A stretch of 27,419 nucleotides of DNA from positions 1 to 27,419 of IMG/VR virus record IMGVR_UViG_3300022856_000027; one strand, 5' to 3'. The notes beneath the pieces are model-generated. The model was not told the DNA's origin, did not search any database, and worked only from the letters and a program-made list of their open reading frames with translations. The position numbers and the translations under genes were made by a program. Source of the stretch: a virus. Positions 655 to 12,781 of the stretch are shown in pieces (the stretch's first letter is position 1; each line of letters opens with the position of its first letter).

Positions 655-684
655 GTCTTAGACCCTTTCCTATGTTTAACCCAT

Positions 685-715
685 ACTCAATCCTAACGGG
701 TTGTTTGGGTTGAGT
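685..715. repeat. Imperfect inverted repeat (13-bp arms, 5-base loop)
   Basis: The arms 685-697 (ACTCAATCCTAAC) and 703-715 (GTTTGGGTTGAGT) pair at 11 of 13 positions around a GGGTT loop. It lies in the untranslated leader of the gene at 139-654, or within the candidate origin. It could be an operator, an attenuator or an origin hairpin. Confidence 0.35.
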
Positions 716-1044
716 CTAGCAAAAAAGTGCTGCCCGGATAACTGACATATCTAAAAACCCCGATCACACCTCATAAACCATTGATAAACTTAAACCTTTT
801 TCAGTATTATCCGTTTTCTGCCCGGACCGTGACGCTTCCAAACCTGTGGCTATAGCGGGAAAGAGTCATCGTCTATAATTTACAGTATTTATAAAACCTT
901 ACATTTCTTGCACGTAATGAAACACTTCAATATACCGTCACAGTTTGGGTACAACAGAATATATGTATATAAACCAAACACTTAACAGGTGTAACGCTTG
1001 AATTTTCATCCGGGCACAAGCCCAGACTATCCGGGCAGAGCCAT

Positions 1045-1078
1045 AAAAAAGCCCCGCCACAATTTAATGAGGCGGGGC
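1045..1078 (-). terminator. Rho-independent terminator of the primase-helicase gene
   Basis: Just after the primase stop codon, on the minus strand, lies a perfect 8-bp stem (GCCCCGCC at 1051-1058 with GGCGGGGC at 1071-1078) with a 12-base AT-rich loop, followed by six T residues (complement of 1045-1050). This isolates primase transcription from the candidate origin. Confidence 0.9.
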
Positions 1079-1083
1079 GTTAT

Positions 1084-3690
1084 TTATAGACCTGGCATTT
1101 TAATTACTGTTGACCGCACCGGCCCGCCGTCACCCAGTCGTTGCGCTGCGTCATACAGCGCCATGATGCTTGCGGGGTCGGTGCCCGTATGGTCTGCGAT
1201 ATGATATAGGCGGCATCTGTTCGGTGCTTTGGGGAAGGTATTAAGCTCTGAACGCGACGTGTTGCACCGCGTAGTGTGCCTGTAGCCTATCTGTTCAAGC
1301 TGCCGTGCCAGATACGGGCCGCCTGGCACTTTGAGGTCTTCAGACTCCAGCAGGTCACGAACCGCATTGAGCGACACCCACCCGCCCCTGAAGCCTACAG
1401 CCCCTTCCGTCACAGCCGACCGGATCAGCCCCGCCGCCGCCCCGTCACCCGCGTGCATCGCCTCAGCGGTGCTGGACGTCACAGGCGCGCGGGACGGCGC
1501 CACATCAAGCGCCAGGTGGCCCAGATAGCCCCGCACCGCCTCGGCCCCACCTGCACCCCACCAGTCGTAGTAGGATCCCCACCAGTCGCCCGTGCCGCCT
1601 GTCCACCATTCAGGATAGAACGCCCGCGCGGCTTCGTCCTCGGTTTGTAGGGCTGAGATGAAATGTGCGTAGCGGCGTTCGCCCGGCGTGGCCAGCATGC
1701 AATGCAGGTGGTTCGTGGTGAAGATCCAGTTGGTGAAATTCTGCGCGTCGTAGGAGCCTTTCCCTTTGCCGTGAATGTGCGCGGCATCGTCGGTGATCCA
1801 CGGCTTGATCTTTTCGGCCAGCACCGACAATTCGCGCTTGCTGTGGTCGCCTATCTCGTTCACCACGATCAGCGTCTTGCGGTCCATATAGCCATTGAAG
1901 TCTGTGGCTATCACGTCAGGTGATGGGTGCGCCACATTCTTGCGCCCGTGACAATACGCGACGGCTTGGGAAATTGTTCCCTTACCGCACCCAGGCGTGC
2001 CTTGCATCACCGGCGACCAGCGCAACATGACGCCGGGCCGCTGCACCAGATGCGCCAGAATTTGCAACAGCGTGTGCTGGTCGGCAGCGTCCGGGAAGTT
2101 TGACCGGATGACGTGCAGGAACGGATCAACCGCATCAGGCCCCACAGGCGCTGCGGGCGCGGTATGCCCTGGCTCGTAGACGTTCCGGATCTTGCGCCCC
2201 TTGTCGTCATAAAGATCAACGCCTGCCAGCGGGTCATAGCCTGTCGCGTGGTAACTGAGCGTGTCAGGATGCTCCCACCAGTAATCCGCCGCCAGCTTGG
2301 CCCGCGCGTTGCCTGATGACGGGTCCATAATCATGATCGGCGGCAGTTGCGCCATGGCGTCTCTGAATTGTGTGCGGGCCTGAGGCTGCATCCCACCCCT
2401 CGCATCCACCGCCACGGCCTGCCCGGCTTCATTTCGGACAATGAAATAATAATTCAACTCCGCGTATTCCGGCGTCTGTAACGCAATGGCACCCTTGGCC
2501 GCCAGAAAAGCCGTGACAGCACGCTTCACCGCCGCCTGCATTTTTACTTTGATGCCGTGCGGCTTGCATTCCTCGAGCACTGTGTCTCGATCAACCGGCG
2601 ACAGCCGCGCCACCTCGTCGGCCAGCAACTCCGCGGCTGTAAGGGGATTTGATTGTATCTTGGCACATATCAGATCGACCACGCTTGCCGCGCGCGGCGC
2701 ACTGGGCATCCCCTGCCCCGGCGCGGTCGGCATCATACCGGCCGGAACGTGAGACGGGCCGGGCATATTCATCAGGCGGTGTCGCGCTCCAATGCCCGCC
2801 ACGTTCGCCCCGGCCCGCTTGGCGTGGTAGCCTATTGTTCCCATTCCCGATCCACCATTTTTTCCGGGCGTGAAAGACGCAAACCGCTTGCTCAACTCTT
2901 TGGGGTCGTAATGCCTGCTACGGCTCGACCACGCATCTGCAACTTGTAACCCTTCGTCACTGCCCCCTGACACGTCTACGATGGCCGCAATGATGGTGTG
3001 CCAGTGCTTGTCACCCCCTTTATGATCCGATTCCAGATCAGGGCTGATATACGTGAGCAATTCCTCCATCTCGGCCAGACTGGACGGCGTGTCCCGGCGC
3101 GGCGCTGGCATCACAGGCGCTTCGACCGTCAGGCGCTTATAAAAATCACCTGCCCCGTCGGTTGATGTGTGAACCACACGGGACATATGCGTCGCGCTTC
3201 CTGGCTTCAGGTGCCAGAACCCCGGCAAGCGCATCACGCGCGGCAAGTCTTTGACGGCTGGATCACCGTCGAATTTCTTGATCAGCGCGTCCTGCAGCGG
3301 TGTGAATTGTTCAAGCGTCACGTCATTGACAAGCCAATATGCGTGCCATTTGCCGGGCGAACTTTCGACTTCGATGTGCGGGGTTTCCCATTCCCGGACA
3401 GGCTCAATCGGTGCGCCGTCAAGATCCAGCCAAAGCGCACGAACCCGTGTGATATTCTCAGCTTTGCGGCCCGTGCCGTCCGTTGCATTGATGGTGATAA
3501 ACACACCAGCGCCACGGCTTTGCAGATCGGTCAGACTGTCGGCATGATCCGCAAGCGTGCCGTGAAACACCCGCGCCAGTCGGTTATCTTTCCGGGCCGA
3601 GTCGTCGTCAAACGTCTGGAATGTGAATGATGTTGCATCAGGATCAAGTAACCGCAGGAATGATTCGGCCTGCGCCAGATCGGGCGTCAC
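1084..3690 (-). CDS. PrimPol-type primase fused to SF3 helicase (DUF5906-like)
   Basis: This 868-residue replication protein should synthesise primers and unwind DNA. The N-terminal RepB/AEP primase-like part shows LDLD (D89, D91), KWH (114-116) and RVMRLPGFWHLK (151-162). A PriCT-like helical region follows at about 205-290, then a P/G/M-rich linker (about 309-335). The SF3/DUF5906 helicase has Walker A GTPGCGKGT (564-572), Walker B LIVVNE (607-612), TTNH (658-661) and an arginine pair at 672-673. Residues 695-713 are unusually rich in Trp. The C-terminal domain, about 758-854, is repeated in the protein at 139-654. Translation starts at a GTG (3690) after GGTGAG, overlapping the stop of a 20-codon ORF. 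It has its own terminator. Confidence 0.9.
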   Translation of the reverse strand: MTPDLAQAESFLRLLDPDATSFTFQTFDDDSARKDNRLARVFHGTLADHADSLTDLQSRGAGVFITINATDGTGRKAENITRVRALWLDLDGAPIEPVREWETPHIEVESSPGKWHAYWLVNDVTLEQFTPLQDALIKKFDGDPAVKDLPRVMRLPGFWHLKPGSATHMSRVVHTSTDGAGDFYKRLTVEAPVMPAPRRDTPSSLAEMEELLTYISPDLESDHKGGDKHWHTIIAAIVDVSGGSDEGLQVADAWSSRSRHYDPKELSKRFASFTPGKNGGSGMGTIGYHAKRAGANVAGIGARHRLMNMPGPSHVPAGMMPTAPGQGMPSAPRAASVVDLICAKIQSNPLTAAELLADEVARLSPVDRDTVLEECKPHGIKVKMQAAVKRAVTAFLAAKGAIALQTPEYAELNYYFIVRNEAGQAVAVDARGGMQPQARTQFRDAMAQLPPIMIMDPSSGNARAKLAADYWWEHPDTLSYHATGYDPLAGVDLYDDKGRKIRNVYEPGHTAPAAPVGPDAVDPFLHVIRSNFPDAADQHTLLQILAHLVQRPGVMLRWSPVMQGTPGCGKGTISQAVAYCHGRKNVAHPSPDVIATDFNGYMDRKTLIVVNEIGDHSKRELSVLAEKIKPWITDDAAHIHGKGKGSYDAQNFTNWIFTTNHLHCMLATPGERRYAHFISALQTEDEAARAFYPEWWTGGTGDWWGSYYDWWGAGGAEAVRGYLGHLALDVAPSRAPVTSSTAEAMHAGDGAAAGLIRSAVTEGAVGFRGGWVSLNAVRDLLESEDLKVPGGPYLARQLEQIGYRHTTRCNTSRSELNTFPKAPNRCRLYHIADHTGTDPASIMALYDAAQRLGDGGPVRSTVIKMPGL

Positions 3691-5330: not shown

Positions 5331-5773
5331 AGCGTCACCACCACGCCCAGTGCCTCAGCCCGCACAAACAACCATCGACGACACTCGGGCCAGCCGTCAC
5401 CGTTCAGCGTATGCGGCGCGTGATGCCTGGCCCACATATAGGCGTCAAGCCGGTCTGCAAACTTGAGACGCTCATATTCGTCCGGCGTCAACTCGGGCAG
5501 CCCCGGCCAGATACGATCCAGCGCGGCCCGCTCTTGCTCGTGGATGACCGTTGCACCCTTTGCCTGTGCTGGCACATCCCCTACCACGGATTCCCCGTCG
5601 TCATGCACCAGCGCCCATTGCAGCAATGCATTGGATGCATCGGGCCACAGCTTAAGGATGATGCGCGCCACCCGCCCGCCGTGTCCCGCCAGCGTGTCAA
5701 CGGTCTGCGCCAGATCGGGGTTGGTGTGCCAGCGCCGGACAAAGCTGGCCCTGAATTGTGCCTCTAGGGTCAT
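5327..5773 (-). CDS. HD-domain phosphohydrolase, 5'-deoxynucleotidase (YfbR)-like
   Basis: This 148-residue protein carries the HD signature: H31 in GHGGRVARI, H57-D58 in ALVHDDGESVVGDVP with E61 and D66, and D107 in KFADRLDAY. The HDxxE...GDxP spacing resembles YfbR-type 5'-deoxynucleotidases, which dephosphorylate dNMPs. A phage could use this for nucleotide salvage or to protect a modified nucleotide pool. It sits between the helicase and methyltransferase genes, with 4-base overlaps on both sides, so all three are probably translated together. The substrate is inferred. Confidence 0.75.
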   Translation of the reverse strand: MTLEAQFRASFVRRWHTNPDLAQTVDTLAGHGGRVARIILKLWPDASNALLQWALVHDDGESVVGDVPAQAKGATVIHEQERAALDRIWPGLPELTPDEYERLKFADRLDAYMWARHHAPHTLNGDGWPECRRWLFVRAEALGVVVTL

Positions 5774-7398
5774 GTGCGTGTCGCCTCCATAATAGTGTCC
5801 CTCAATTCCAGCGCCGCTCGCTCGGACAGCCCCTGTGCGCTCATCACATCAAGCCCAAACCTGAAAAGGAACCGGCTTTGCATAGCCTCATCCGAGTCAC
5901 CCGCAGCCAGCCGCATCCCGCCCCATCGCCGCATGGCGTCGGACAGGGACGACTGTGCCGCCTGGTTCCGCCTGTGCCGGGCGCGGATCCCCGCGGCCAC
6001 AATCTCAGACGCGCCGTAAGGTATGGCAGGCTCGGCGGCTTGTATCTTGGCCGCCCCGGCCCTCAACGTTGCCAGCAGTTCCAGCGACATTTCGGACAGC
6101 ACCCCGTCTACCTGATCCGGTGACGACCGCCCGGCAGGGACGTGATCGGCGCCGCAATAAGGGCACGCAAACACGACGGCCTCATATGTCAGCAGGCATT
6201 CCGGGCAGACCCTGACCGGCACCGCGTCGGGATTGCCATTGGCCTTGCGCGTCTCGTCTTGCCAGAGCGTCCAGGTGCGCGGCGTATCGGGCAGGCCGTG
6301 CTTGGCCGCCATGCGGACCACGTTGCCCACGTGGTCGATGACGATACCGTGGGTCTTGCCCGGAGCGGGTGTCAGGCATCGTGCAAACTGCTGGCAAAAC
6401 AATCCGAAGCTGGCAGTCGGGCGGGCCATGATCACAACATCACAAGACGGCACATCGACCCCCTCGGCGAAAAGATTGACGTTGGTAAGGACTTGCAACT
6501 CGCCTGCTGCAAACTGATCGAATTGCGACTGGCGCAGGCTGTCATTGCTGGTGGCGTCCAGTGATGCGGCACGGATGCCCTCCGCCACAAACCGATCTGC
6601 AATGTCCCGCGCGTCCTGCACATCGACGGCAAAGACGATGGCTTGCCTGCCCGGAACGTGGCGCTGGTATGTCTCAACCACATCGCCGATTATTTCCGAC
6701 TTGCGGGCGGCCTTGGTGGACGCGGGTGTGAAATCGCCAGTCGATCCGATCCGCAACAGCGCCTCGTCAATCCCGGTCTGTGACGCGATGACCCGATATT
6801 CGCAGACCATACCGATGTCGATCAGATCGCGCATGCCCGGCCCTTGCACCATCGCGTGAAAAACCCCGTGCTGATCGGCGTGCAATGACTTCTTGTCGGC
6901 CCTGATTGGCGTGGCCGTAACCCCCAGCCCCTTGGCGTTAGGGAACAGTGCAACGGCTTTGCCCCACTTGTTTTCCTGCAACAGATGCGCCGCCTCGTCG
7001 GTGGTCCAGCGCCGGATCGAGTTGCACCACGCATCGCCAGGCTTGAACCGGCGGATAAGGGTATCAACACCGGCCACGCTGACTGAGGCGCGCGGATCGT
7101 AGAAGTTCCGGCCCGTTGTTTTGACGTGCTGCGATATGCAGTAATTTATGACCGGCTGAGGCGCGATGATGTTGTGGTAAATGCCGGTCAGCGCATAGGT
7201 GCGGCTGATCTGTCCGACCAGTTCCTGCCGATGGACAATGGTGCAAGACCGCTCCCCATCGGCGTTCAGCGCGGCAAATGTCACGGTCTTACCGCTGCGT
7301 GTCGGCATCACGGCCAGCACGTTTTGCGCCCCGTTATCCCACTTGGCGCGGATGTCGTCGATCAGTTGCGTCTGGTATGGTCTGAGTGTGATTGTCAT
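5770..7398 (-). CDS. SF2 DEAD/DEAH-type helicase with zinc ribbon
   Basis: This 542-residue DNA-dependent ATPase/helicase resembles type III Res-subunit and phage helicases. It has Walker A MPTRSGKT (31-38), a DEAAH motif II (134-138), motif III TATP (161-164), motif V TNVNLFAEGVDVP (305-317) and motif VI with Q336/R340. A zinc ribbon follows (C398, C401, C412, C415), then a helical C-terminal region of unknown role. It is the first gene of the left early operon. No good Shine-Dalgarno precedes the ATG at 7398, and a candidate promoter lies so close that a leaderless transcript is possible. Confidence 0.9.
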   Translation of the reverse strand: MTITLRPYQTQLIDDIRAKWDNGAQNVLAVMPTRSGKTVTFAALNADGERSCTIVHRQELVGQISRTYALTGIYHNIIAPQPVINYCISQHVKTTGRNFYDPRASVSVAGVDTLIRRFKPGDAWCNSIRRWTTDEAAHLLQENKWGKAVALFPNAKGLGVTATPIRADKKSLHADQHGVFHAMVQGPGMRDLIDIGMVCEYRVIASQTGIDEALLRIGSTGDFTPASTKAARKSEIIGDVVETYQRHVPGRQAIVFAVDVQDARDIADRFVAEGIRAASLDATSNDSLRQSQFDQFAAGELQVLTNVNLFAEGVDVPSCDVVIMARPTASFGLFCQQFARCLTPAPGKTHGIVIDHVGNVVRMAAKHGLPDTPRTWTLWQDETRKANGNPDAVPVRVCPECLLTYEAVVFACPYCGADHVPAGRSSPDQVDGVLSEMSLELLATLRAGAAKIQAAEPAIPYGASEIVAAGIRARHRRNQAAQSSLSDAMRRWGGMRLAAGDSDEAMQSRFLFRFGLDVMSAQGLSERAALELRDTIMEATRT

Positions 7399-7509: not shown

Positions 7510-8109
7510 ATGCAGATCACCTTTGACCCCCACAACGTCCAGGAATGCGCCACGATTGCCCGCTTGCTTGGCACCGCCGCCCCGGCACCTGCACAGCCCG
7601 AGACGGCACCTGCACAGCCCGAGACGGCACCTGCACAGCCCGAGACGGCACCTGCACAGCCCGACACAGACTGTCACGGCATGACCCACGACGACGCAAT
7701 CCACAGCACGCCGCCCAGCTTTAACGCTGACGGATCCTGGCGGGCCAAGCGCGGCGCAAAAGAAGCCTATGAAGCTGCGGTCGCCGCCGCTACGGCACCC
7801 GCACCAGCACCCGCACCAGCACCCGCACCGCAAGGGATGCCTGTGCCGCAACCGGCCAGCGCGGCCCCGGCAACACCGCCCGCCCCGATTGATTACAAGA
7901 CAATGGCGCAGCGGTTCATGGCAAAAATGGCTGACCCTGACGGGCTGCCCGCAGAATATGAGGCAATCTATGCCGCCCTGTCCATCGGTTATGACGATCT
8001 GGAAACTAACCAGACCAGCATCGCCCGGCTCTCAGATTATATGGACGCGGTAGACAACGGCGACGACCACGACGGATGCGTCCGCCATGCCATGAGCGCC
8101 GACCAATGA
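7510..8109 (+). CDS. Phage protein with DGxWRxKRG motif and Ala/Pro/Gln repeat
   Basis: This 199-residue acidic protein opens the plus-strand replication operon behind an AGGAGA site. Residues about 24-52 are four copies of a seven-residue APAQPET-type repeat. Next comes HDDAIHSTPPSFNADGSW followed by RAKRG, a motif seen in phage proteins near replication genes (IHS...DGxWRxKRG). A second low-complexity linker (APAPAPAPQGMPVPQP) precedes an acidic helical C-terminal region of about 75 residues. Biochemical role is unknown; replication or recombination accessory protein is the best guess. A terminator-like hairpin follows the stop. Confidence 0.75.
   Translation: MQITFDPHNVQECATIARLLGTAAPAPAQPETAPAQPETAPAQPETAPAQPDTDCHGMTHDDAIHSTPPSFNADGSWRAKRGAKEAYEAAVAAATAPAPAPAPAPAPQGMPVPQPASAAPATPPAPIDYKTMAQRFMAKMADPDGLPAEYEAIYAALSIGYDDLETNQTSIARLSDYMDAVDNGDDHDGCVRHAMSADQ
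7585..7664 (+). repeat. In-frame 21-bp tandem repeat, four units
   Basis: Three identical 21-base units (7585-7605, 7606-7626, 7627-7647) and a fourth that matches for 17 bases (7648-7664) lie head to tail inside the gene at 7510-8109. Each adds one seven-residue APAQPET-type unit, so copy-number change would keep the frame. Perfect identity implies recent expansion. Confidence 0.95.
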
Positions 8110-9523: not shown

Positions 9524-10381
9524 ATGTCACGCCACACCGAATACGGAAACAGCCCAGTCGGACGCCTCATCTCGGGCGACCCGTGGGTGAAGCAGACCAC
9601 CGACGCGAACAACCGGGAAATCCCGCCTGAAAAGCGGTCATACTGGTTCGCCGTGGCGATTGAAAAGAACGCCCCCGGCATGAATGAGATGCTTGGCCTG
9701 ATGTTCAAAGCCGCGCAGGCCGGATACGGGCAGGCTCCGCACATCATGGCGCAGATCAACATGGGGCTGGCGGCCACGGCGTTTAGCTGGAAAATTGCGG
9801 ACGGCGACGAAATGCGCGCCAATCCGACAACCGGCGCGCAGGAGCCACGCTGGAAGCACGGCAAGGGCTGCTGGATCGCAAAGTTTTCGACCACGCTGCA
9901 AATCGCATCGGCCAAATACAACGGCGCCGTGCCGGCATATTGCGACCCGAGCGAAATCAAGCGCGGATATTATGTCACCGTGCCATTCTCCACATCTGCC
10001 AATGGGAACATGGACCACACGGCAGGCGTCTATCTGAACCCCCAGACCGTTTGCCTCGTCGGGTTCGGCCCGGAGATTGTCGGCGGCCCATCGCTGGAAC
10101 AGCAGCTTGGCGCAGGTCCGGGTGCGTATATGCCCGCAGGTATGACCCAGACCCCGCAACTGCCAAGCGGTGCTGCGCAGGCTGCACCCGCACCGGCCCC
10201 GTCAGGTATGCCCGCACCCGCCCCTGCACCATCGGGTATGCCCGGCCCCCAGCCGCAGACCTCTGGTATGCCGACGCCTGCCGCCAGTGGGATGCCTACG
10301 GCGACTGGATCAGGTGGTAATCCGCCCGCATACAGCGGTTATATGGCACCTGCAACGGGCGGTGGTATGCCTGGCGCGTAA
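9524..10381 (+). CDS. Probable single-stranded DNA-binding protein (DUF2815-like)
   Basis: This 285-residue protein lies where phages with DUF2800 often carry the DUF2815 ssDNA-binding protein. Residues 1-190 look like a globular, aromatic-rich fold with GVYLNPQTVCLVGFGPEI near the end. The remainder is a long disordered tail with repeated SGMP, PAPAP and AGM units. No acidic tip typical of bacterial SSB is present. The start is chosen at 9524, behind GGAG, over an in-frame ATG at 9509. Gene order and the C-terminal motif support the call. Confidence 0.7.
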   Translation: MSRHTEYGNSPVGRLISGDPWVKQTTDANNREIPPEKRSYWFAVAIEKNAPGMNEMLGLMFKAAQAGYGQAPHIMAQINMGLAATAFSWKIADGDEMRANPTTGAQEPRWKHGKGCWIAKFSTTLQIASAKYNGAVPAYCDPSEIKRGYYVTVPFSTSANGNMDHTAGVYLNPQTVCLVGFGPEIVGGPSLEQQLGAGPGAYMPAGMTQTPQLPSGAAQAAPAPAPSGMPAPAPAPSGMPGPQPQTSGMPTPAASGMPTATGSGGNPPAYSGYMAPATGGGMPGA

Positions 10382-10635: not shown

Positions 10636-10841
10636 TGACACAATTCAAGCCCGGCGACAGAGTGACCCACAATCCGACCGGCGAGGAATGGACGGTGGAC
10701 AGAGCCTATGGGTCTTATGTGGTTCCAGCAGGCTGGCCTGAGTCGCACGCCCTTGCCGCTGATTGCACGTTGATTTGCGGCTGCACCACGTCAGACGAGC
10801 GGGAAGCCTGCACCAGAGCGTGCGACACTGTGGCGCTGTGA
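10635..10841 (+). CDS. Small phage protein (KPGDRVTHNPTGEEW type)
   Basis: This 68-residue protein starts with a KOW/SH3-like strand pattern, FKPGDRVTHNPTGEEWTVDR, followed by GWPESHALAADCTL and several cysteines (CGC, C). Similar small proteins occur in phage early regions; role unknown. The start at 10635 overlaps the preceding stop, and the TGA at 10839-10841 overlaps the polymerase GTG. Confidence 0.65.
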   Translation: MTQFKPGDRVTHNPTGEEWTVDRAYGSYVVPAGWPESHALAADCTLICGCTTSDEREACTRACDTVAL

Positions 10842-12781
10842 CAGAGTGGAACGACTTCCCATACGACCTTGAATCCTACCCGAACGTATTCAGCGCGGTA
10901 ATCGTTCACGCCCCGAGCGGCACGGAATGGATTTTTGAGGTGTCTGACCGGGTGAACCAGTCCCGCCAGTTGCTCAACTTCATTCACGCCCTCAGCCAGC
11001 ATCCCGGCAATCGTATGGTGGGCTATAATAACGTCGGATACGACTATCCGTTGCTGCACGCCCTGTTGCGGTTTGACTTGTTTACCGCTGCCGATGCCTA
11101 TCAGATATCCATGGGCATCATCGAGACGCCGTGGGACGACAGGTTCCGCAATACCGTCTGGGCGTCTGACATGATCGTTCCGCAAGTCGATCTGTTCAAG
11201 ATCCACCACTTCGACAACCAAGCGCGGCTGACCAGCCTGAAGCAGATCGAGATTGCCCTACAGTTGCCGCACGTTGCGGACCTGCCATTTCCGCCCGGCA
11301 CGGTCCTGACGCCCGACCAGATCCCGCAGTTGCTCGGATACAACCGGCACGACGTGGCCGCCACCCTGCAATTCTACCGGCAGTCCGCGCCTGCGCTGGC
11401 GTTTCGGGATGAGATGTCGGCCGAGTTGGGTATCGACACGACAAACCTCAGCGATACGTCAATTGGATCTGAAATCTTTATTTCCGAAATGGAAAAAAGA
11501 GCGCCAGGACTGGTGGGCAAGCGCGGGCGTTGGAACCAGACACAACGCCCTGTGATGAATCTTTGGGAATACTTGTGGGACTATATCACATTTGACCATC
11601 CTGAATTTCAAAAGATTATTGAGTTTTTCAAAGCAAGCAGTGTTACAAAAACCAAAGGTGTTTTTAAAAATCTCAACGCAAACTGCTACGGTATTGATTT
11701 TAAGTTTGGGATGGGTGGCATACACGGCGCGAAAAATAACACGACAATGCGCAGCTGCGCAAACCGTGTTATCCAAGGCCGTGACGTAAAAAGCTACTAC
11801 CCCAACTTGTCAATCAAGAATAGAATTTACCCTGCACACTTGGGTGAAGTGTTTTGTGATATTTACGAAGACCTTTATATCCGAAGACAATCATTCCCCA
11901 AGTCAAACCCGAGGAACGGCGCACTAAAGTTGTCGCTCAACGGCGGCAGCTATGGTAAAACAAACAGCGAGCATGGCCCTTTTCGAGACCCCGCTGTTAT
12001 GCTGACGATCACGATCAACGGACAGCTTTTGTTGTGCATGTTGGCCGAACGGCTGGCGGCCATCCCGACGCTGGAATTGATCCAAGTCAACACCGATGGA
12101 ATTGAATATATCGTGGACCGGGACCGGGTGGGCGAGTGCGACGCGGTGTCGGCGGAATGGGAAAAACTGACCGGGCTAGAATTGGAGTCTGATGACTACC
12201 AGAGTTTCCACCAACGCGATGTAAATTCGTACCTGGCGATTGATGCGCGTGGCGGCGTGAAGTGCAAGGGCGCGTTTGAGTATCAGCACGGGCTAGGCTA
12301 CGGCGACGGCTGGCATAAAAACCAATCGTGCAAAATCATTGCCATTGCCGCCGAGGCGTATCTGGTGCGCGGCGTGCCGGTGGCCGATACCGTGGCGGCC
12401 TGCGACAACGCGTTTCACTTTATGCACACACTGAAAGTCCAGCGCGGCGACAGGGTAATGTTGGGCGGCGATCTGTCCGACTATGACTGCCAGTGGACGC
12501 CACCAGACGCCAAGGGGCGGCCCGTGAACCGCAAGATGCACAGCGGCGGGGTGGCACAGCAGCGGACGGGCCGCTACTACGTCACCCGCACGGGCGGCGC
12601 GCAGTTGTGGAAGATCATGCCGCCGCTGCCCAAGCTGCCATCGCACGACCGGCCCCAGGCGATCCTGAAGGGTGAGACGGTGCTGATGTGCAATGATCTG
12701 CACGACTTCGACTGGGCGTTGCTGGACCGGGATTATTATGCGCGGGCCGCTTGGGACCTGGTTCTCAGCACCGGCGGGTGA
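10838..12781 (+). CDS. Family B DNA polymerase with 3'-5' exonuclease
   Basis: This 647-residue replicative polymerase starts at a GTG that overlaps the preceding stop (GTGA); a longer ATG start at 10763 would lie inside that gene. Exonuclease motifs: Exo I D10-L-E12, Exo II N64-N65...D69, Exo III Y168...D172. Polymerase motifs: A DVKSYYP (316-322), B KLSLNGGSYG (364-373) and C QVNTDG (416-421), where an Asn replaces the first Asp of the usual DTDS. The segment encoding about residues 207-375 is markedly AT-rich compared with both flanks, suggesting recombination within the gene. It probably works with the nearby primase-helicase, SSB-like protein and clamp. Confidence 0.9.
   Translation: MTEWNDFPYDLESYPNVFSAVIVHAPSGTEWIFEVSDRVNQSRQLLNFIHALSQHPGNRMVGYNNVGYDYPLLHALLRFDLFTAADAYQISMGIIETPWDDRFRNTVWASDMIVPQVDLFKIHHFDNQARLTSLKQIEIALQLPHVADLPFPPGTVLTPDQIPQLLGYNRHDVAATLQFYRQSAPALAFRDEMSAELGIDTTNLSDTSIGSEIFISEMEKRAPGLVGKRGRWNQTQRPVMNLWEYLWDYITFDHPEFQKIIEFFKASSVTKTKGVFKNLNANCYGIDFKFGMGGIHGAKNNTTMRSCANRVIQGRDVKSYYPNLSIKNRIYPAHLGEVFCDIYEDLYIRRQSFPKSNPRNGALKLSLNGGSYGKTNSEHGPFRDPAVMLTITINGQLLLCMLAERLAAIPTLELIQVNTDGIEYIVDRDRVGECDAVSAEWEKLTGLELESDDYQSFHQRDVNSYLAIDARGGVKCKGAFEYQHGLGYGDGWHKNQSCKIIAIAAEAYLVRGVPVADTVAACDNAFHFMHTLKVQRGDRVMLGGDLSDYDCQWTPPDAKGRPVNRKMHSGGVAQQRTGRYYVTRTGGAQLWKIMPPLPKLPSHDRPQAILKGETVLMCNDLHDFDWALLDRDYYARAAWDLVLSTGG

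Follow-up and report, generated by a model that had tools for sequence, protein, structure and literature searches.

The gap at positions 655–1083 of the window (a whole viral contig of 27,419 bases) is probably a replication origin, at which the primase-helicase would bind facing iterons through a C-terminal winged helix, melt the AT-rich core between them, load and prime. The two-cluster layout is conserved among relatives, and all the iterons of a gap are switched together with a few residues in the primase wing. The original prediction regarded this gap as an origin with inverted iterons; according to the conserved layout and this co-switching, it is the best-supported reading at the sequence level. 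The features are summarized in Table 1.

The gap is 429 bases long and has a GC content of 41%, against roughly 55–65% across most of the contig, as expected from the prediction of an AT-rich gap in a GC-rich genome. The four copies of TGCCCGGA are located exactly as predicted. L1 and L2, beside the primase terminator, point one way, and R1 and R2 point the opposite way. Two clusters thus face each other across the core. The predicted inverted pair was also found: CTGCCCGGATA at 730–740 has its exact reverse complement at 1028–1038 (11/11 match). None of 2000 dinucleotide shuffles of the gap contained a GC-rich 8-mer at four copies. In the whole window, TGCCCGGA occurs 9 times (1.5 expected), and the five copies outside the gap are scattered. 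Three of the five are located in a helicase gene (5770–7398, copies at window 6200–6655), and these may be extra binding sites or a coding coincidence. The imperfect half-site and L1 form GCCCGGA-TAG-TCTGGGC. This half-site, the facing arrangement of the two clusters and the relatedness of the two flanking genes go beyond the original prediction. Within the core, the block 871–897 is recognisable in both helicase classes described below. The predicted A/T tract at 958–973 is present, but it is not purely A/T, as one G is located at 965. The primase terminator, also predicted, is a strong 8+2-pair hairpin followed by T6 (−21.8 kcal/mol, z = −3.8), and it is kept in nearly all relatives.

Table 1. 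Features of the gap and of its two flanking genes (window positions).
Feature	Position	Strand	Remarks
P0001, 171 aa	139–654	−	Accessory protein; aa 72–162 resemble the primase C-terminal domain
P0001 codons 136–138 (Asn-Arg-Ser)	241–249	−	Counterpart of primase 824–826
P0001 Asn122	289–291	−	Together with 136–138 fits the local iteron type
Iteron R2, TGCCCGGA	731–738	+	Sequence match
Iteron R1, TGCCCGGA	819–826	+	Inverted relative to L1 and L2
AT-rich core	827–1008	.	182 bases, 64% A+T, between the iteron clusters; proposed melting and priming region
Iteron L2, TGCCCGGA	1009–1016	−	21 bases from L1
Imperfect inverted half-site GCCCAGA	1020–1026	+	Between L1 and L2, read directly
Iteron L1, TGCCCGGA	1030–1037	−	Sequence match
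Intrinsic terminator of primase	1045–1078	−	Hairpin 1051–1078, T run 1045–1050
Primase-helicase, 868 aa, GTG start	1084–3690	−	Pfam: RepB_primase, PriCT_2, DUF5906
Primase C-terminal domain, about aa 738–855	1126–1479	−	AlphaFold2 model; candidate iteron-binding domain
Primase codons 824–826 (Asn-Arg-Cys), wing	1213–1221	−	Track the iteron word
Primase codon 810 (Asn), wing residue	1261–1263	−	Tracks the first iteron bases

Forty loci encoding primase relatives were compared, and more were added by a scan for the conserved terminator. In the close relatives with the region, the terminator, two or more iterons, an AT-rich core and facing inverted iterons are always present directly after the primase. 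The arrangement of two iterons on each side of the core is similar in the relatives, and the gap begins at the primase stop codon in the window and in the relatives, the position 3' of the initiator gene that origins of the PICI/SaPI type occupy. The gene downstream of the gap varies (P0001, MAKRSL.. or MQMPRN..). The layout thus stays with the primase whatever gene comes next, and the repeats can be assigned to the primase. These results also bear on the alternative that the primase domain or P0001 binds the repeats only to regulate the neighbouring genes, and that replication starts elsewhere. R2 is located just upstream of P0001, in many relatives a plausible promoter for the next gene overlaps with the gap at its right end, and repeated sites are often bound by repressors. 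However, the gap stays while the downstream gene differs, the left cluster immediately follows a terminator, a place that requires no promoter, the iterons flank a long conserved AT-rich core, and the specificity tracks the helicase-primase rather than a regulator. We regard such purely regulatory sites as improbable.

In the relatives of the primase class found in the window (class I), the iteron words are TGCCCGGA, GGCCCGGA, GGCCCGGC, TGGACA and CCCCGGCT, and they are switched as a set. When nine words were counted against the gap types, each regular word was essentially confined to its own type. At the sequence level, this matrix and the wing covariation described below point to recurring short sites, each set matched to its own initiator, as in iteron-type origins. 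The original prediction took loss of the repeats in close relatives as evidence against an origin. TGCCCGGA is indeed absent in many relatives, but another word replaces it in an equivalent two-cluster layout. As the replacement word is accompanied by a matching change in the primase wing, the loss of TGCCCGGA counts as support for the origin. GC skew, which was proposed as a check, gives the origin no support: in the window and in three related contigs, among them the 40,502-base contig described below, the cumulative skew is monotonic, with no change of polarity at the gap. When iteron clusters lacking a primase (decoys or satellites) were sought by pattern, the D-pattern gave no new matches other than chance ones, and a hold-out scan using the leader of the downstream gene gave only partial gaps in which the primase end is missing.

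The DUF5906 part of the window primase is an NrS-1-type SF3 helicase, and a PDB relative of the primase-helicase is 6k9c (the helicase part of a phage primase). A C-terminal winged-helix domain is predicted after the helicase. The last ~130 residues were modelled with AlphaFold2 from 49 sequences with moderate to good confidence (pLDDT 80), and the predicted order of elements, H-S-H-H-S-(short helix)-S-H, is that of a winged helix. A fold search of the PDB with this model gave no significant match, and the matches among viral predicted structures are other phage primases. Thus, the winged helix is a reading of the predicted element order and not a proven match.

According to a column test of 29 class I primases, in which 101 alignment columns have three or more states, no column other than 810, 824, 825, 826 and the last residue keeps a single state among the primases of each word type. 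Residue 810 is N with words starting with TG, H with GG, and I with the AC/CC types. The states of 824–826 across the word types are NRC, MRC, NRS, TKT and KQS. In the model, residues 810 and 824–826 are located where one wing strand ends and the next begins, and not in the preceding helix. In the comparison between the primases of type A (the type of the window) and type D (the type of L012), the between-type distance is clearly above the within-type distance only at 809–848 (0.368 versus 0.11/0.15). The N-terminal third of the primase is exchanged freely across the word types. In the sequences, the word switch tracks the four wing residues, and this suggests a lock-and-key code. As a separate observation, N-terminal primase modules (aa 1 to about 190–290) are swapped freely among L014, L015, L020, L023 and others, while the helicase part stays. 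The variation of N-terminal primase modules, helicase halves and downstream genes makes the region a gene-exchange hotspot, and the gap might instead be another cis-acting site (a packaging site, a partition site or a recombination hotspot). Among the genes examined beside the gap, however, no terminase or partition gene was recognised, and the word switching follows the primase wing. Another cis-acting site is therefore highly improbable.

The terminator scan revealed a second class of primases (class II), which has a VapE-like helicase half (PF05272) and a different C-terminal domain. The VapE-type helicase half is non-homologous to that of class I, and the N-terminal primase part is related in several class II members. 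The class II words are GTGGCAC, GTCAACCC, GTCCCCCT and GTCAACCT, together with two irregular types, and the gap core is conserved. The differences in the core are 0.139 within types and 0.212 between types, and those in the iterons are 0.120 within types and 0.526 between types. The class II C-terminal domain is nearly invariant except for the stretch after AGWR, where the wing segment follows the word: VSKTVRGSK with GTCAACCC, VSKTVMGKK with GTCAACCTA, and VSKKVMGTK with GTCCCCCTA. SKT is found with CAACC and SKK with CCCCC, and VRG is found with words ending in CC and VMG with words ending in CTA; these apparent parallels are a pattern read from few types and not a fitted code. In the distant pair L194/L196, all eight iterons on both sides (8/8) change from GTGAGGC to GTGAAGG, the core is almost identical, and few C-terminal residues are changed. 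That iterons and wing appear to switch in concert, and do so in two unrelated classes of helicase, is an addition to the original prediction.

The main statistical rival is hitchhiking, owing to the proximity of wing codons and gap: the end of the primase would be exchanged together with the gap as a single block, and any residue in this neighbourhood would follow the word without contacting it. The wing codons are about 180–250 bases from the first iteron, and the class I backbone tree is compatible with each type having arisen once (four type changes, the minimum possible). On the poorly resolved class II tree, eight type changes are counted; judged from these trees, independent switches appear to be few. 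The spacer that separates the first iteron from the wing codons, however, is not type-specific. It is identical in L014 and L035, and in L011 and L024, with residual type clustering present. A spacer common to different types argues against plain linkage. In class II and in L194/L196, the cores are nearly unchanged while all the iterons change. P0001, on the far side of the gap, has matching wing residues, and the columns even closer to the gap track the type less well, with the exception of the last residue. Pure linkage is, in our judgement, very unlikely, and recognition of the word by the wing is the preferred reading.

Several loci deviate from the rule. L034 has an A-type wing beside a GTGGCAC gap, and at its positions 2000–2420 a frameshifted class I primase end is joined to a class II GTGGCAC gap. 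This locus may be a recombinant, a decayed gene or an assembly chimera; as the frameshift is located in the C-terminal domain of the primase, L034 is probably chimeric or decayed. L185 and L186 have the GTCCCCCT wing, yet their words are GGTGCC. The GTGGCAC wing is also found in L031, L144, L165 and L169, whose array is mixed (GTGTATC and GTGCCAC) and perhaps represents an intermediate of a switch. Among distant class I primases with the domain, an array within 400 bases downstream was found in only 3 of 33. Downstream arrays throughout the whole domain family were thus rejected, and the rule covers this phage group and some distant members.

P0001 consists of N-terminal ~60 aa and a reused domain of the primase type. 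Its residues 72–162 show 53% identity to the primase C-terminal domain over 96 residues, and the predicted fold is the same. Both proteins for which the original prediction proposed binding assays (the 139–654 protein and the primase-helicase) therefore carry the candidate recognition domain. Outside the wing, P0001 is about 50% identical to every primase type. In the window, in L014 and in L042, the wing residues of P0001 or its homologue fit the neighbouring origin: N..NRS is found beside TGCCCGGA, and N..VKT (TGGACA-type residues) beside TGGACA. Among the loci examined, homologues were found only in L014 and L042, and P0001 was rejected as a part of the conserved origin. P0001 may act as an independent protein on the same iterons, either regulating the origin or competing for it. 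Odn, a protein that attacks the origin of a rival element, shares the origin-binding domain of an initiator in the same manner; no nuclease match to P0001 was obtained in Pfam, PHROG or NCBIfam. As P0001 has no recognisable nuclease and fits its own origin, self-control or exclusion of same-type phages appears more likely than attack on a different type. An imperfect inverted repeat at 678–715 (AACCCA..TGGGTT, ACTCAA..TTGAGT), just upstream of P0001 and similar in L014, is a possible operator for the N-terminal part of P0001 itself.

In the proposed mechanism, the primase-helicase produced from the upstream gene would bind the iterons on both sides through the C-terminal winged-helix domain, with the wing as the main reader of the iteron word. 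The copies at the two facing clusters would melt the AT-rich core and load as helicase, and the loaded enzyme would prime synthesis for the phage's own DNA polymerase. We infer binding, melting, helicase loading, priming and the direction of replication; the assembly on facing clusters, the melting and the loading are proposed by analogy to the SaPI/PICI replicons. A wider reading, to which we give somewhat less than an even chance, is that two unrelated initiators (DUF5906 and VapE-like) at the same locus read iterons mainly through the wing, with a modular residue-to-base code, repeated concerted switches and about nine or more specificities, and that P0001, as a free-standing reader, changes along with the switch and has an effect on the origin, either self-control or same-type exclusion.

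In the case of SaPI/PICI, the origin is the region 3' of the initiator gene, and two iteron sets flank an AT-rich region (PMC6092414). The iterons are recognised by the C-terminal domain of the SaPI Rep helicase (PMC7581432). The window resembles these elements in the proposed origin directly 3' of the initiator gene and in the two iteron sets around an AT-rich region. In SaPI/PICI, primase and helicase are sometimes fused, and the Rep C-terminal domain reads the iterons, as the primase may do here, judging from the sequences and the model. The pri-rep-ori organisation was stated in 2018 to be in no other known bacterial replicon (PMC6092414). PICIs, however, are helper-induced satellites without full virion genes, whereas the phages described here are tailed and of full size and carry head, tail, lysis and DNA polymerase genes, and here the wing residues and the words appear to switch together in two unrelated helicase classes. 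In the PLEs, the origin-binding domain of RepA covaries with the origin as a module, and Odn carries a similar domain and attacks the origin (PMC8263062). The likeness includes the covariation of domain and origin, module swapping, and a second protein with the origin-binding domain (Odn there, P0001 here). In contrast, PLE RepA belongs to the RepA_N proteins and has neither helicase nor primase, and Odn is a nuclease against a rival element, whereas P0001 has no recognisable nuclease and fits its own origin. In SCCmec, the isolated C-terminal domain of Cch2 binds AAGTG direct repeats just downstream of the gene (PMC7581432). There, as would be the case here, the C-terminal domain of a D5/primase_C-type helicase binds direct repeats downstream of its own gene, but one conserved site and no switching are described in the passages considered, and the primase is a separate polymerase.

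The window phage is comparable to P4 in that primase, helicase and origin recognition would be united in one protein, which is a proposal for the window phage. The alpha protein of satellite phage P4 combines these three functions, and P4 uses a separate replication region (ori/crr). No sequence match to P4 was seen for the window. In lambdoid O/ori, closely related replicons can differ in the iteron word and the initiator specificity. The proteins of lambdoid O and geminivirus Rep are unrelated to those described here, and initiation is helicase-loader based (lambda) or rolling-circle (geminivirus). Closely related geminivirus replicons likewise can differ in the iteron word and the specificity of Rep (PMC12548392). 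PMC6092414 mentions P4 alpha along with its cognate ori.

If the origin reading is true, these phages provide a natural experiment on the joint change in specificity of an initiator and of all the binding sites dispersed around it. The close pairs L011/L012, L004/L005 and L194/L196 would make the wing-to-base code directly testable, the SaPI/PICI origin plan would be extended to ordinary tailed phages, and a set of candidate orthogonal small origins would be available. Competing phages, satellites, decoy origins (PMC4488673) and P0001-like proteins would then be a pressure that may drive origin diversification.

The contig is derived from a full-size tailed phage. The tape measure, tail terminator, tail chaperone, head morphogenesis, amidase, DNA polymerase, helicase and SSB-like genes were recognised in the window. 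Against named phages, the window gave no DNA match, the primase matches all show less than 60% identity, and no relative of P0001 was found. In the bacterial genomes searched, neither a relative of the primase C-terminal domain nor a D-type iteron cluster was found. Rfam and tRNA scans gave no match. A related contig of 40,502 bases (L116, L117 and L118) has a 46-base direct terminal overlap and is probably a complete circularised genome of the same phage group. The N-terminal part of the ORF at 7510–8109 (+) contains about four tandem 21-base units (seven-residue repeats) at window 7583–7660. GGCATACC occurs four times in 160 bases (window 10205–10364), partly with a spacing of 30 bases, near the end of the Gp2.5-like SSB gene. 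A second pocket of low GC content (about 40–43%) is located at window 11451–11900, within the DNA polymerase gene (10763–12781).
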